DNA from: an uncultured Clostridia bacterium
GTDB lineage: Bacteria; Bacillota; Clostridia; Saccharofermentanales; Saccharofermentanaceae
Assembly: GCA_946537885.1 (NCBI GenBank)
Contig: CAMNGC010000009.1
Span: 21,843-85,842 of the forward strand
Direction: 5' to 3'
DNA: 64,000 bases
The translations under genes were made by a program, and so were the position numbers. Shown in pieces: positions 44,719 through 50,592 of the stretch; position 1 is the first letter of the stretch; the number at the start of each line of letters is the position of its first letter. A model generated the notes under the pieces. That model was not told where the DNA came from and made no database searches. It worked only from the letters and a program-made list of their open reading frames with translations.

Positions 44719-44747
44719 TTGACAATGAAATTAGCACTTGCTAATAT
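44719..44747 (+). promoter_or_regulatory. Promoter of DeoR-family gene, overlapping a palindrome
   Basis: TTGACA-17-TAATAT; ATTAGCA-CT-TGCTAAT between/over the elements; only 8 nt from -10 to the ATG. Confidence 0.7.
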
Positions 44748-44755
44748 CAGAATGT

Positions 44756-45529
44756 ATGATTAATTTGGAACGCAGAAAACAGATACTTGAGATTTTGGCT
44801 GAGGAAGGCTCGATCAGGACGAACGAGCTGTCGCTCAGGCTCGGGGTTACGGGCGCTACGATCCGTACTGATCTTCGAGACCTTGAGAGAGAAGGTGCTA
44901 TCGAGCGCTTCCACGGCGGTCTTCGTTTGCCTGAACAGCACAGGATCGAGATCGGCGAGAACTATATGGTCCGCTCGGTCATGAATGTTGATCTTAAGGA
45001 TAAGATCGGAAGAGCCGCCGCCCAGTATGTTAAGAGTGGTGACACGATCTTTATGGATGCAAGTTCAACTGCTTTTCATATGATTCGCTATTTGAAGAAT
45101 ACAGATGATGTAACTGTTATAACCAACGGCATTCATACGGCTATGGAACTTCAGCGCAATAATAATTTCAAGTCGATCATCTTGATAGGCGGTATGTTAA
45201 GACCTCACTCGGGTTCTATCGAGGGGGTAGTCAGCCGTGAGATGTTGAGCCGTTTGTCGGCCGAGTCCTATTTTGTATCCGGCAACGGATTTACTGTCGA
45301 GGGCGGACTCTCGGGCAATAACTTTTTCGAGCTGGAACTTAAGAGGATCTGTGTGGAGAGGAGCAAGAATATCGTCGCTCTCGTAGATTCCACCAAGATC
45401 GGTCACAGTTCGGCTTCCGTCTTTATCAGTACAAATCGTATAGATACTTTGATCACCGATGACGGCCTGTCCGCGGAGAATCGTTTGGCTTGCCGTAAGG
45501 CGGGGATCAATCTGGTAATAGGTAAGTGA
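44756..45529 (+). CDS. DeoR-family transcriptional regulator
   Basis: ERRKQILEILAEEGSIRTNELSLRLGVTGATIRTDLRDLEREGAIERFHGG. Confidence 0.93.
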   Translation: MINLERRKQILEILAEEGSIRTNELSLRLGVTGATIRTDLRDLEREGAIERFHGGLRLPEQHRIEIGENYMVRSVMNVDLKDKIGRAAAQYVKSGDTIFMDASSTAFHMIRYLKNTDDVTVITNGIHTAMELQRNNNFKSIILIGGMLRPHSGSIEGVVSREMLSRLSAESYFVSGNGFTVEGGLSGNNFFELELKRICVERSKNIVALVDSTKIGHSSASVFISTNRIDTLITDDGLSAENRLACRKAGINLVIGK

Positions 45530-45582: not shown

Positions 45583-46512
45583 TTACTTGCTTCCGTATCT
45601 TAGCTTATATTGCTTCGGTGTCATCATACGGCGTTTCCTGAACTGGGCGATATAATAACTGGTATTCGAATAGCCGACCGCCATTGCAATGTCTGCTACG
45701 GGCATGTCGGTGTTACGAAGGAGAACCTCACTCTCATCGATCCTTTTGCGGTTAAGATATTCGGAGAAAGTAAGGTTCATGGTGTTTTTGAAGAATCTCG
45801 AAAAGTAACTGTAGCTCATGCCGGCAATTTCCGCCATTTCTTCTGCCGTCAGATTGTCCATATAGCGCTCATTAACGATCTCGAGAACGTTCCCGATCCT
45901 TGATATCCCGGCTCGATCTGCAACCTTGTCGCGAGTCAGTACGTTCGCATCCTTCCACTGACGCAGGATATAAAGCGACAGGAAGGCGAGATGAGATCTG
46001 ACGGCCAGCTTATAGAATCTGACCTGTTCAGTACATTCCTCCACAAGACTATCGAAAATAAGCGAGATGTCACGAGCGCTGTGATGTCTGGAATTAGGAT
46101 TACCGCCGTGGGTATAAAAATTCTTCATCCTAAAGACACGGAGCTTATCGCCGGGAAGGATATACTTCAGATCGTCGCTGGAAAGGGCTGAGGAGAAGAT
46201 ATAGTTCTGATCAAAGTCCAGGAGGATATATTCGCTGTCATCAGATGCGGGAATTATCTCGTGATGCTCTCCCGGAAGGATTATGATAAAGTCCTCCTTG
46301 TCGAGCTTGTAACTGCTGCTTCCAATAGTAACTGTCAGATCTGAACTTAGCGACTTAACCATCTCAACATAATTATGGTAATGCCAAGGCATTTCAGAAC
46401 TGCTTCTTATGCATTTGAACATCTCGCCGCAGTCATTACGGATATCTTCAAATACCGCCTTGGGGCGGTTTGTAATTGAAACGAATGTTGCATTTGTACT
46501 ATTGTTTGTCAT
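45583..46512 (-). CDS. AraC-family transcriptional regulator
   Basis: Cupin-like N-terminus, double HTH (LTAEEMAEIAGMSYSYFSRFFKNTMNLTFSEYLNRKRI...VADIAMAVGYSNTSYYIAQFRK). Confidence 0.93.
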   Translation of the reverse strand: MTNNSTNATFVSITNRPKAVFEDIRNDCGEMFKCIRSSSEMPWHYHNYVEMVKSLSSDLTVTIGSSSYKLDKEDFIIILPGEHHEIIPASDDSEYILLDFDQNYIFSSALSSDDLKYILPGDKLRVFRMKNFYTHGGNPNSRHHSARDISLIFDSLVEECTEQVRFYKLAVRSHLAFLSLYILRQWKDANVLTRDKVADRAGISRIGNVLEIVNERYMDNLTAEEMAEIAGMSYSYFSRFFKNTMNLTFSEYLNRKRIDESEVLLRNTDMPVADIAMAVGYSNTSYYIAQFRKRRMMTPKQYKLRYGSK

Positions 46513-46679
46513 AATACTCCTGTTTATAGTGTTTTAGCTCACTAAAGTGCAATGGTCAAAATTGTTGCACATTCCTATAATAATAGTGAATTTTTGCAGT
46601 TGCAAGTGTATGCGTGAAAAATTTTCGATATGTATGTATAATTAAAATGTTTTTTTATAGCTATTAAGAGGTGTTGAAT

Positions 46680-48953
46680 ATGCAGGTGAATTCCATCACG
46701 TTACCGAGTTGGCTCGGGAACAAGGCCGTTTTCCAGCAGGGAGTGCCGTTTTATATTGACGGTAAGGCTGCCCCCAGCGCCACTGTCACCCTTGAGATAG
46801 TCAAGGATCCGACTGATGGAAGGCGAGTATCCAAACTTGATGCTGACTATGGTGTTATCTTAAGTCTTGAGACGACTACATCTGCCAAGGGCAATTTCAG
46901 ATTCAATGTTCCTGCCTATAAGGCCTCTTCGGATACTTATACATTCGTTTTCAAGTGTTTTGGGGAATCGGTCTCCTATAACGACATCAGATGCGGTGAT
47001 GTCTGGGTCTTCTTAGGTTCCGGACTTCCGGCTATTCCCATGAGCCATGCAAATGCACCGGCGGCTCCTCTTAAGAGAGGGGTAATGAGTAATCTCAGAT
47101 TCTTTACTCCGGCCAGATCCGGTCTTGAGAGTCATGAAGAGGATATTGCTTTTGAGCCCAAGGAGCATTTCAGCGAGGCGGAGTGGATAAGGATCGAGGA
47201 CACCAAAGCTCTGTCTAATGTATCATCCACCTGCTTTGCTTTCGCTTATTCATTGGCTGATCAGATCCAGTATCCGGTGGGTGTTGTAGATCTTTCTGCC
47301 GATAATTCCACGATCCTTAATTGGATCTCCGATGATGCCATTGCCAATCAGACGGCTCTCAGGGATTATATCGAGGAACTGGGGCTTCTTACCGATGAGG
47401 CCAGATATCAGTCTCTGATCGCGGGGGACCGTAAGAAGAGGAAGACCGCTAAGCTTGAGACGGAAGTGTCTCAGGGCAAGAGCTTCTTTGATTTTGATCT
47501 GGAGAAGAGCGACGAGCTTAATAAGCTTCACGGCGAAGATACTACGGCTGAAGCGTTGGCGAAGATGGGAGATCTCGATTTCCCCTCGTCAAGCAATTCC
47601 ACGATGCGAGGCAAGCCTGTTGCTAACGAGAAGAAGGAGACGACGGTCTCTGCCAGCAGCGCCATGAATCTTGACTTCGGAATGATCTCTGAGATCAGAG
47701 TCAAGACTGACAAAAAGGCGGAGGATTCGCGCTTCATCAAGTTCAAGTATCGTCCTTCGGTTTACTGGAGATCCAAACTCTATCCTGTGAGGCAGATGAC
47801 GATCCGCGGTATCTGCTATTCGCCTGATACTGATGAGAGTATGTTCGGAAGATATGACCTGCTGCTTATGGGATTGCTGGAGACATTGGCTTCCAACTTC
47901 GAACCCAGAGAAGTCTACGAGGATGAGCTTATGCCATCCATGCTCTTCGTTGCAATGCATCCGGGCAGCGTGGATTACGAACATCCCTATAAAGTCATCG
48001 AGTTTAATGAGAATCTTACGGCCTTCACGAGAAGACTTGCCATGCCTACGGGCATCATCAGTCTTCATGATCTTTTATTGCCCGATAAGACAAAGAGCTT
48101 TACCTTGGGAACGAGGCTTGCCGTAATTGCTCTTGGTATTCATTTCACGCCTAAGATGCCTGCTTCATGCCCGGAGTGCATAGGTGTTGAGAAGGCCGGT
48201 AACAAGTTGATACTTAAGTTCAATAATCTGGGCGACGGTCTGCGTCTTGCCGAGGGTGAGACAGAGCTTCGTGGCTTTGCCGTCTGCGGTCAGGACAGGA
48301 TCTTCTATCCGGCTCAGGCCAGGATCCTTCACGGCGTCCGTGTAATGGTCTGGAGAGATGATATCAGTGATCCCGTATCGGTAACTTACGGTTTCCAGCC
48401 TTTCCCGCATGAGGCCACATTCCGCAATCTGAACGATCTGCCTGTACTTCCTTTCAGATTTGACAGGGAGCCTGCGTTTTATTCGCCGGATCTTTTCTTC
48501 AATAATTGTGACAAGCTGGAATTTGTCGGAATGAGACATGCCGGAGATGAGTTCGAGAAGCTCAAAGTCTACAAGACATTTAAGGGCAACGGTGTAATAA
48601 CCGAGGATACTTTGAATAAGACAGAGGGAAGCGCTTCTCTTCATATCAGATACGAGACTGAGAACTCTCTTTACGGTTTTGAGCCGAATCTGGAGTATGC
48701 GTCCCTTTTCGCTCCGATAACAATTTATGGTAAGAATAAATTGCTGGTTGATGTGTTTAATCCCGAGCAGAAAAAGAAGAAGCTTAAAGTGGATTCTTTT
48801 GGTGAATGCGAGATAAGACAACAACTGACATGGCAGACGCTGACTCTCGAATACAGGGGGGAGGGTGATATCGTGATCGATCACCTGAGATTCCTTATCG
48901 AAGACAGTGACAGGAATGGCGAGATATACATAGATAATATCCGCTTTGAATAG
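46680..48953 (+). CDS. Sialate-O-acetylesterase-like protein lacking catalytic motifs (putative pseudoenzyme)
   Basis: VFQQGVPFYIDGKAAPSATVTLEI, CGDVWVFLGSGLPAI, YPVGVVDLSADNSTILNWIS align to the sialate esterase framework but the GQSNM block reads GSGLP. Confidence 0.65.
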   Translation: MQVNSITLPSWLGNKAVFQQGVPFYIDGKAAPSATVTLEIVKDPTDGRRVSKLDADYGVILSLETTTSAKGNFRFNVPAYKASSDTYTFVFKCFGESVSYNDIRCGDVWVFLGSGLPAIPMSHANAPAAPLKRGVMSNLRFFTPARSGLESHEEDIAFEPKEHFSEAEWIRIEDTKALSNVSSTCFAFAYSLADQIQYPVGVVDLSADNSTILNWISDDAIANQTALRDYIEELGLLTDEARYQSLIAGDRKKRKTAKLETEVSQGKSFFDFDLEKSDELNKLHGEDTTAEALAKMGDLDFPSSSNSTMRGKPVANEKKETTVSASSAMNLDFGMISEIRVKTDKKAEDSRFIKFKYRPSVYWRSKLYPVRQMTIRGICYSPDTDESMFGRYDLLLMGLLETLASNFEPREVYEDELMPSMLFVAMHPGSVDYEHPYKVIEFNENLTAFTRRLAMPTGIISLHDLLLPDKTKSFTLGTRLAVIALGIHFTPKMPASCPECIGVEKAGNKLILKFNNLGDGLRLAEGETELRGFAVCGQDRIFYPAQARILHGVRVMVWRDDISDPVSVTYGFQPFPHEATFRNLNDLPVLPFRFDREPAFYSPDLFFNNCDKLEFVGMRHAGDEFEKLKVYKTFKGNGVITEDTLNKTEGSASLHIRYETENSLYGFEPNLEYASLFAPITIYGKNKLLVDVFNPEQKKKKLKVDSFGECEIRQQLTWQTLTLEYRGEGDIVIDHLRFLIEDSDRNGEIYIDNIRFE

Positions 48954-48963
48954 GAGTAAATGA

Positions 48964-49947
48964 ATGTACGACGAACTGGTTCCCGCTATTGAGGATTACA
49001 TGATCGCCACTTCGGGTGCTATCCCGGTCGTTTTCGAGGGGCTTTCTCATACCCTTGAGAAGACTGCGCCTGATGTCAAGGTCAGCTCCCACACATCCCA
49101 CGAGCTCCTTTATGTCCGCAACGGCAAGCTCGATGTCATGATCGAGGGGCACAATATAGTCATCGAAAAAGGCTCGACTCTCATAATCCGTCCTAACTCT
49201 GCCCACTCGGTTAGAGTCACATCAGGGACGGCGGATATCTTTGTGCTTTATTTCGGCTTCTCGCGCGATGCCGGCGCCGTTAATACGATGCTCGGTATGG
49301 TAAGAGAGGTAAAGCCCAAGAAGGCACCCGGTCCAAGCATTGTGATACCGCCCAGCATGGATCAGACATCCGTCGAGAGCTTTCTGGATTTTGCTTCCGG
49401 AAGTGACAGGGATGAGCTTCAGAAGGCTCCGTATCTGACCATATCAGGTGGTTATAAAAAGAGCATCAGCAATATAGTCGAGAGGATCGTTGAGGAGAAT
49501 AAGGACAACCTTTATTCCAAAGAGGTAATGATGCAGATCCTGACACTTGAGCTTATGCTTACTCTGGCTCGCGCCATGAAGAAGGAGTGGGAGGAGAGCC
49601 TTCGCGTTCGTAACGGCAAGGCCCGTGAACTGGTCCTGATCGCCAGAGATTATATAGACCAGAATTACGAGAGAGGCATAACAATAGCAGATGCTGCTTC
49701 CTATGTATTCTTAAGTCAGGGCTATTTTACCAGAGCATTCAGGGATGAATTCGGTATAAGCCCCATGGGATACCTGATGAAGAAAAGGCTGGATCGTGCA
49801 TGTGAGCTCCTGGGCAACGACGGGATCAAAGTCTCCGGAGTTGCTTCCCAGTCAGGCTTCTCAAGTCCTCAGCGTTTTAATGCGGCTTTCCGCAAACAGA
49901 TGGGGATGACGCCTATGGAATATCGTAAACAGATACTCAGAAAATAA
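48964..49947 (+). CDS. AraC-family transcriptional regulator
   Basis: Cupin N-terminus, C-terminal AraC double HTH. Confidence 0.93.
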   Translation: MYDELVPAIEDYMIATSGAIPVVFEGLSHTLEKTAPDVKVSSHTSHELLYVRNGKLDVMIEGHNIVIEKGSTLIIRPNSAHSVRVTSGTADIFVLYFGFSRDAGAVNTMLGMVREVKPKKAPGPSIVIPPSMDQTSVESFLDFASGSDRDELQKAPYLTISGGYKKSISNIVERIVEENKDNLYSKEVMMQILTLELMLTLARAMKKEWEESLRVRNGKARELVLIARDYIDQNYERGITIADAASYVFLSQGYFTRAFRDEFGISPMGYLMKKRLDRACELLGNDGIKVSGVASQSGFSSPQRFNAAFRKQMGMTPMEYRKQILRK

Positions 49948-49968: not shown

Positions 49969-50592
49969 GTGGCATACGATTATGCAAACGACAACAATAT
50001 ACCTGAGGAGAGCCGCGCCAATATGGATCTGCCCAAGATCGAAGCGGCAGTAAGAGACATCCTTGAAGCGATAGGAGAGGATCCTGACAGAGAAGGTCTC
50101 CTCGAGACCCCTTCGAGAGTCGCAAGGATGTATGCGGAAGTCTTCTCCGGCATCCACAGAGATGTTTCCAAAGACATCAAGATCTTTAATGAGCCCGGAA
50201 ATGATGAGATGATCCTTATAGGTGATATACCTTTCTATTCTATGTGTGAACACCACCTTCTGCCTTTTCACGGCAAGGCTCATGTGGTTTATATTCCAAA
50301 GGACGGCAAGATCTTCGGTCTCTCCAAGGTTGCCCGTATAGTAGATACTCTGTCCCGTAAGCCGCAACTTCAGGAACGTCTTACATCGGAGATTGCAGAC
50401 AGTATCGTTAAGAGCATCGATCCTACGGCTGTCTGTGTGGTTATCGAGGCTGAGCATCTCTGCATGACCATGAGAGGCATTCGTAAGCCGGGCTCCAGGA
50501 CTGTTACTTCAGCCATGAGAGGCGGCTGCAGAACCGACGCCCGTACACGTAACGAGGCCCTGGCTCTCATCAACAGACAGAGGACTTCCTGA
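49969..50592 (+). CDS. folE: GTP cyclohydrolase I
   Basis: [51 protein letters not shown]-like motif. Confidence 0.96.

Follow-up and report, generated by a model that had tools for sequence, protein, structure and literature searches.

A conserved sialate O-acetylesterase homologue without catalytic residues, encoded beside DeoR and AraC regulators in Saccharofermentanaceae

The window analysed here is a whole stretch of 64,000 nucleotides from an uncultured Clostridia bacterium (order Saccharofermentanales, family Saccharofermentanaceae). The gene under study encodes a homologue of sialate O-acetylesterases in which the catalytic blocks are replaced, and it is referred to below as the pseudoesterase. 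Its neighbours and the parts of its product are as follows.

44738..45529, plus strand: DeoR-family regulator, with a 4-nt overlap into the pseudoesterase in some relatives without the divergent AraC gene
45583-46512, minus strand: divergent AraC regulator, found in the family's other genera and lacking in most of the genus
46680..48953, plus strand: pseudo sialate O-acetylesterase CDS (757 aa; ATG start; ribosome-binding site; PDB homology)
46680..46994, plus strand: N-terminal beta domain with the family-specific insert KDPTDGR-VSKLD-xYG (alignment; beta strands in the model, block pLDDT 50-84)
47016..47030, plus strand: block I, GSGLP instead of GQSNM, with Gly115 for the nucleophile Ser (alignment)
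47292..47327, plus strand: block II, LSADNSTILNWI instead of ..GG(S/T)xIxxW, Gly-Gly lost (alignment)
47397..47714, plus strand: poorly conserved charged linker in the SGNH domain, residues about 240-345 (alignment)
47808..47837, plus strand: block III, GICYSPDTDE instead of GxxWYQGESN, residues 377-386 (alignment)
48066..48092, plus strand: remodelled and shortened His loop HDLLLPDKT, HPxxK absent, H463-D464 invariant in the family (alignment)
48468..48950, plus strand: C-terminal all-beta domain, residues 597-757, faintly CBM-like (model and Foldseek)
48964..49947, plus strand: AraC regulator (cupin and HTH_18), 10 nt past the pseudoesterase stop; found behind the gene in almost all family loci examined
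49969..50592, plus strand: folE, the first gene of the folate operon after AraC

Both the intact full-length frame and its position between two AraC regulators agree with what a sequence-only reading of this DNA had described. The frame comprises 757 amino acids plus stop and ends at 48953. Its ATG at 46680 is preceded by a good ribosome-binding site (AAGAGGTG, about 46666-46673), and an in-frame alternative start, GTG, is found at 46671. Neither a hydrophobic N-terminus nor a signal peptide was seen in the window protein, unlike in the ordinary relatives L211 and L212, which have a hydrophobic N-terminus. Cytosolic localization is the best reading of this sequence.

The framework peptides that had been aligned with SGNH sialate esterases are all present in the protein. 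A phmmer search against PDB chains yielded three sialate O-acetylesterases, 9ega (E=1.9e-21), 9h4u (7.2e-21) and 7kmm (1.4e-17), with residues 64-232 and 356-596 of the window protein aligned directly with 9ega. Positions 4-502 of the order-wide family profile (686 positions) match 9ega from residue 21 to 644 (E=4.7e-70), nearly the whole solved chain. These alignments support homology over the SGNH core and membership in the SGNH/SASA family, a relationship which rests on sequence and not on a model; the full-length AlphaFold model from 19 genus sequences is poor (pLDDT 43, pTM 0.24). A Pfam search with the window protein gave nothing significant, including no match to SASA (PF03629), whereas 13 of the 23 members of A2 matched SASA at E<=0.01; an NCBIfam search gave nothing meaningful. 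Compared with SASA/PF03629 SGNH hydrolases (9ega, 9h4u, 7kmm, 8f9o), the window protein has the SGNH homology in common, but it lacks Ser, GG, WYQGE, HPxxK, a signal peptide and the PF03629 match, and contains an extra N-terminal insert, a linker and a C-terminal beta domain. Neither a catalytic paralogue nor any other family match could be found in the window's own genome (assembly 88% complete).

The loss of the catalytic blocks, which had been the central claim of the sequence-only reading, was confirmed block by block. Gly115 takes the position of the nucleophile Ser, where the PDB alignments show GQSNM (9ega, 8f9o), GQANM (8f9p) or GQXNM with a non-standard residue X (9h4u). The Gly-Gly of block II is gone, GICYSPDTDE stands in place of the WYQGESN block, and the His block is approximately 15-20 residues shorter than elsewhere in the order. 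In the window's family (f1 in the anonymous family and genus codes, f and g, used here; five genera, 65 sequences) Ser, GG, WYQGE and HPxxK are absent from every sequence. E. coli NanS and other Ser-His sialate 9-O-acetylesterases belong to the same SGNH superfamily; catalysis by NanS needs Ser and His, as determined by mutagenesis (PMC10017367), and the window protein has neither. The same two residues are needed in the SGNH lipase SrL, also by mutagenesis (PMC10779480). That the window protein has lost catalysis is well supported by these comparisons. Pseudoenzymes have been mentioned as possible in the GDSL/SGNH superfamily (PMC10779480), which would likewise have an SGNH-type sequence without catalytic residues; what differs here is that the loss is fixed family-wide, repeated in the order and tied to a regulator locus. 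No precedent for SGNH or carbohydrate-esterase pseudoenzymes, nor for pseudoenzyme-AraC pairs, was found in the open-access papers searched.

A CBM-like domain had been proposed for the C-terminus. The model of the C-terminal 162 residues is indeed all-beta, and its top Foldseek matches are CBM29, CBM4, CBM11, CBM28 and CBM6 (E about 1e-4). However, with a mediocre model (pLDDT 60, pTM 0.61) and TM values of 0.37-0.48, the likeness to a CBM is only weakly suggested. A sequence search with this domain gave no match.

A full-length orthologue was recovered from 81 of 85 genomes of the genus by the order-wide profile search, the exceptions being G018 (only a fragment, L081), G022 and G033 (weak matches) and G034 (none). 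Order-wide, 178 of 188 genomes matched. Orthologues at 56-71% identity occur throughout the genus; the titles of matching contigs name Saccharofermentans sp. MAGs as well as KHP2, a cultured isolate in which the locus is found (L033). Outside the order, within the same class, the best matches weaken to E about 1e-65 and represent different SASA-type proteins, several encoded by frames of much greater length; judged from these searches the family is order-specific. No internal stops were found in the listed full-length orthologue frames, and close genus pairs exhibit dN/dS ratios of 0.018-0.08 (pairwise Nei-Gojobori; median 0.053), with dS near saturation for many genus pairs and the closest pairs giving 0.018. 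Within the genus, 15-residue windows at block I and at the His loop (block V) reach the 95th and 93rd conservation percentile, and those at blocks II and III the 73rd and 43rd. Parts of the remodelled pocket region, namely GDVW-F-x-G, F(S/A)P and HDLLLPDK, are highly conserved. The pseudoesterase gene is under purifying selection and not decaying, and it combines lost catalytic residues, an intact gene and selection across species, as a conserved pseudoenzyme does. The earlier suggestion of a retained pseudoenzyme holds: had only this copy been decaying, its orthologues would have kept the triad, and instead Ser and His are lost in 65 of 65 family sequences.

Seven residues (R104, C105, P382, H463, D464, H488 and H577) are invariant in these 65 sequences. 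Four of them, C105, H463, H488 and H577, mostly differ elsewhere in the order, whereas D464 does not. In the window His463-Asp464 are encoded at 48066-48071 and His577 at 48408-48410. The seven residues mark a likely new site.

Beyond the window's family, the catalytic state varies considerably, and Ser and His are both kept in only a few lineages of the order. L112 and L115 are examples of relatives within the order whose motifs are intact (GQSNM..HPLAK). In f2, Ser is present and His lost in g2, g8 and most of g5, with L118 exhibiting the reverse. Ser is replaced by Asp (GQDNM) in g15, g21 and g23 of this family, among which only g23 retains HPxxK, and by Ala in g22. In f3, GQSNM, GG, WYQGESD and HPxxK are apparently intact in three of four g13 sequences and in g30; g6 and g29 retain Ser and HPxxK with some block changes, and the motifs are lost in g3, g16 and one g13 sequence. 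In f4, GQDNM occurs with WYQGESD and HPxxK in g9 and g10, Gly in g14, and GQSQM with HPxxK in g25. GQSNM is also the reading in L210-L214, relatives from outside the order. A maximum-likelihood tree was computed with the catalytic columns left out; it gives good support to 55 of 77 inner branches, leaves the deepest splits unresolved and has several flagged long branches. On it the parsimony minimum is seven changes for Ser, seven for His and four for the pair. Since Ser survives in one part of f2 and His in a different part, a history of losses only would require about seven losses on our reading of this tree. The stem branch of f1 is long (0.78 changes per site), and both the move of the locus and the complete erasure of the active site fall on it.

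The Ser to Asp replacement recurs in L120, L124, L127, L128 and L147-L156 (f2) and in L121, L123, L125 and L126 (f4). These are apparently separate lineages with otherwise well-kept motifs; both WYQGESD and HPxxK are retained in g9 and g10 of f4 and in g23 of f2. The replacement could be a sign of altered chemistry.

The genus also contains a second, shorter sialate-esterase-like family (L069-L078 and L082, paralogues of about 527-560 aa), no copy of which was found in the window's own genome. FYQGE is retained and HPSDKK usually, and the Ser of GQSNM is G, D, T or R in all members seen. The His of the HP block is lost in L070, L072, L074 and L075 (LFPSDKK) and kept in L071, L073, L076 and L082 (MHPSDKK), which suggests further loss in some members of this family.

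In f1 the gene occupies a conserved locus that differs from its place in the other families, with the gene order DeoR, divergent AraC, in g17-g20 an XRE-like HTH gene, pseudoesterase, AraC, FolE, FolP and FolK. DeoR was not seen beside the pseudoesterase in the g18 and g19 loci. The divergent AraC gene was found in g17-g20, in the window and in a few close relatives, and most of the genus lacks it. Among the loci where it is absent, 13 show a 4-nt overlap between DeoR and the pseudoesterase; as some of these represent one genome counted twice, fewer of them are independent. The start of the downstream AraC gene lies mostly 7-16 nt past the pseudoesterase stop. The DeoR, pseudoesterase and AraC arrangement in f1 is operon-like. 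The XRE-like HTH gene (90-105 aa) is conserved between divergent AraC and pseudoesterase in g17-g20 (L216:2405-2704, L221:8791-9060, L224:5224-5541 and others) and had no match in the window or in the genus loci searched. In f2-f4 the gene resides in a housekeeping cluster of Pgi, a radical SAM N2 protein, DUF2344 and/or RNase E/G and the family gene, followed by ValS in f2 and some f3 and by KsgA in f4. Compared with the sequence-only reading, new observations are that the catalytic loss is genus- and family-wide and recurs in the order, that no export signal is seen and that the gene is co-operonic with DeoR and AraC in the family.

Cupin-AraC and DeoR proteins commonly respond to sugars or sugar phosphates. 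We lean, by a modest degree, towards the cytosolic pseudoesterase now being a sugar-ligand-binding or regulatory partner. In this view a sialate O-acetylesterase scaffold of the SGNH/SASA type was inherited as a core gene of the order. From it the Ser nucleophile, the block II Gly-Gly, WYQGE and the His loop would have disappeared in the ancestor of the window's family, the remodelled pocket region being kept afterwards with parts of it highly conserved. Ester hydrolysis would no longer be performed. Instead, a cytosolic sugar or one of its derivatives may be the ligand of the pocket and/or the C-terminal beta domain. Towards the regulators encoded with it, and most likely the AraC downstream, the protein may serve as sensor, buffer or scaffold. 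Nearly every bacterium of the genus retains the gene next to sugar-type regulators, so a sensor or scaffold is the probable outcome rather than a broken enzyme.

Pseudoenzymes often serve as scaffolds, and the protein might instead have a structural or assembly role, for example as a subunit stabilising another enzyme, with the linked regulators merely controlling it. The operon may indeed reflect nothing but regulation of the pseudoesterase gene, and in f2-f4 the gene has no sugar regulators beside it but lies in the housekeeping cluster (pgi, radical SAM, DUF2344 or RNase E/G, followed by valS or ksgA). However, blocks I and V of the remodelled pocket rank among the best conserved parts of the protein in the genus, and we consider a structural or assembly role rather unlikely.

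Still less probable is that the protein remains an enzyme with relocated or different chemistry, in which invariant residues such as H463-D464 or H577 could form another catalytic site instead of the SGNH Ser-His. The invariance of H463, D464, H488, H577 and C105, all of which except D464 mostly differ elsewhere in the order, would fit such a site, as would the acidic residue (D or E) found in place of Ser in many sequences of the genus and, within GQDNM, in further families. Yet this position is Gly in the window protein and V, N, R or K in g18-g20, the Gly-Gly of block II is gone too, and no precedent for such an enzyme was found in the open-access papers searched. A pseudogene in progress, to which the missing catalytic residues might point, can be ruled out by the lack of internal stops in the listed frames, a dN/dS of about 0.05, family-wide conservation and conserved synteny.

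The window protein is a new form within a known family, non-catalytic and well conserved, and we infer a non-catalytic function for it. A caution follows for annotation: these core genes in rumen and gut genomes should not be annotated as sialate esterases. A wider and more speculative proposal, which we put forward tentatively, is that this order-wide cytosolic esterase family has lost catalysis repeatedly while being a near-universal core gene, and that therefore its important role may never have been mainly catalytic; in one family, a DeoR-pseudoesterase-AraC operon unit would use the dead sugar esterase as a cytosolic ligand receptor for one-component regulators. As a single order with conserved gene order offers a clean natural series from apparently intact esterase to fully remodelled pseudoenzyme, comparison of intact and dead orthologues makes the role of an esterase scaffold after catalytic loss directly testable.
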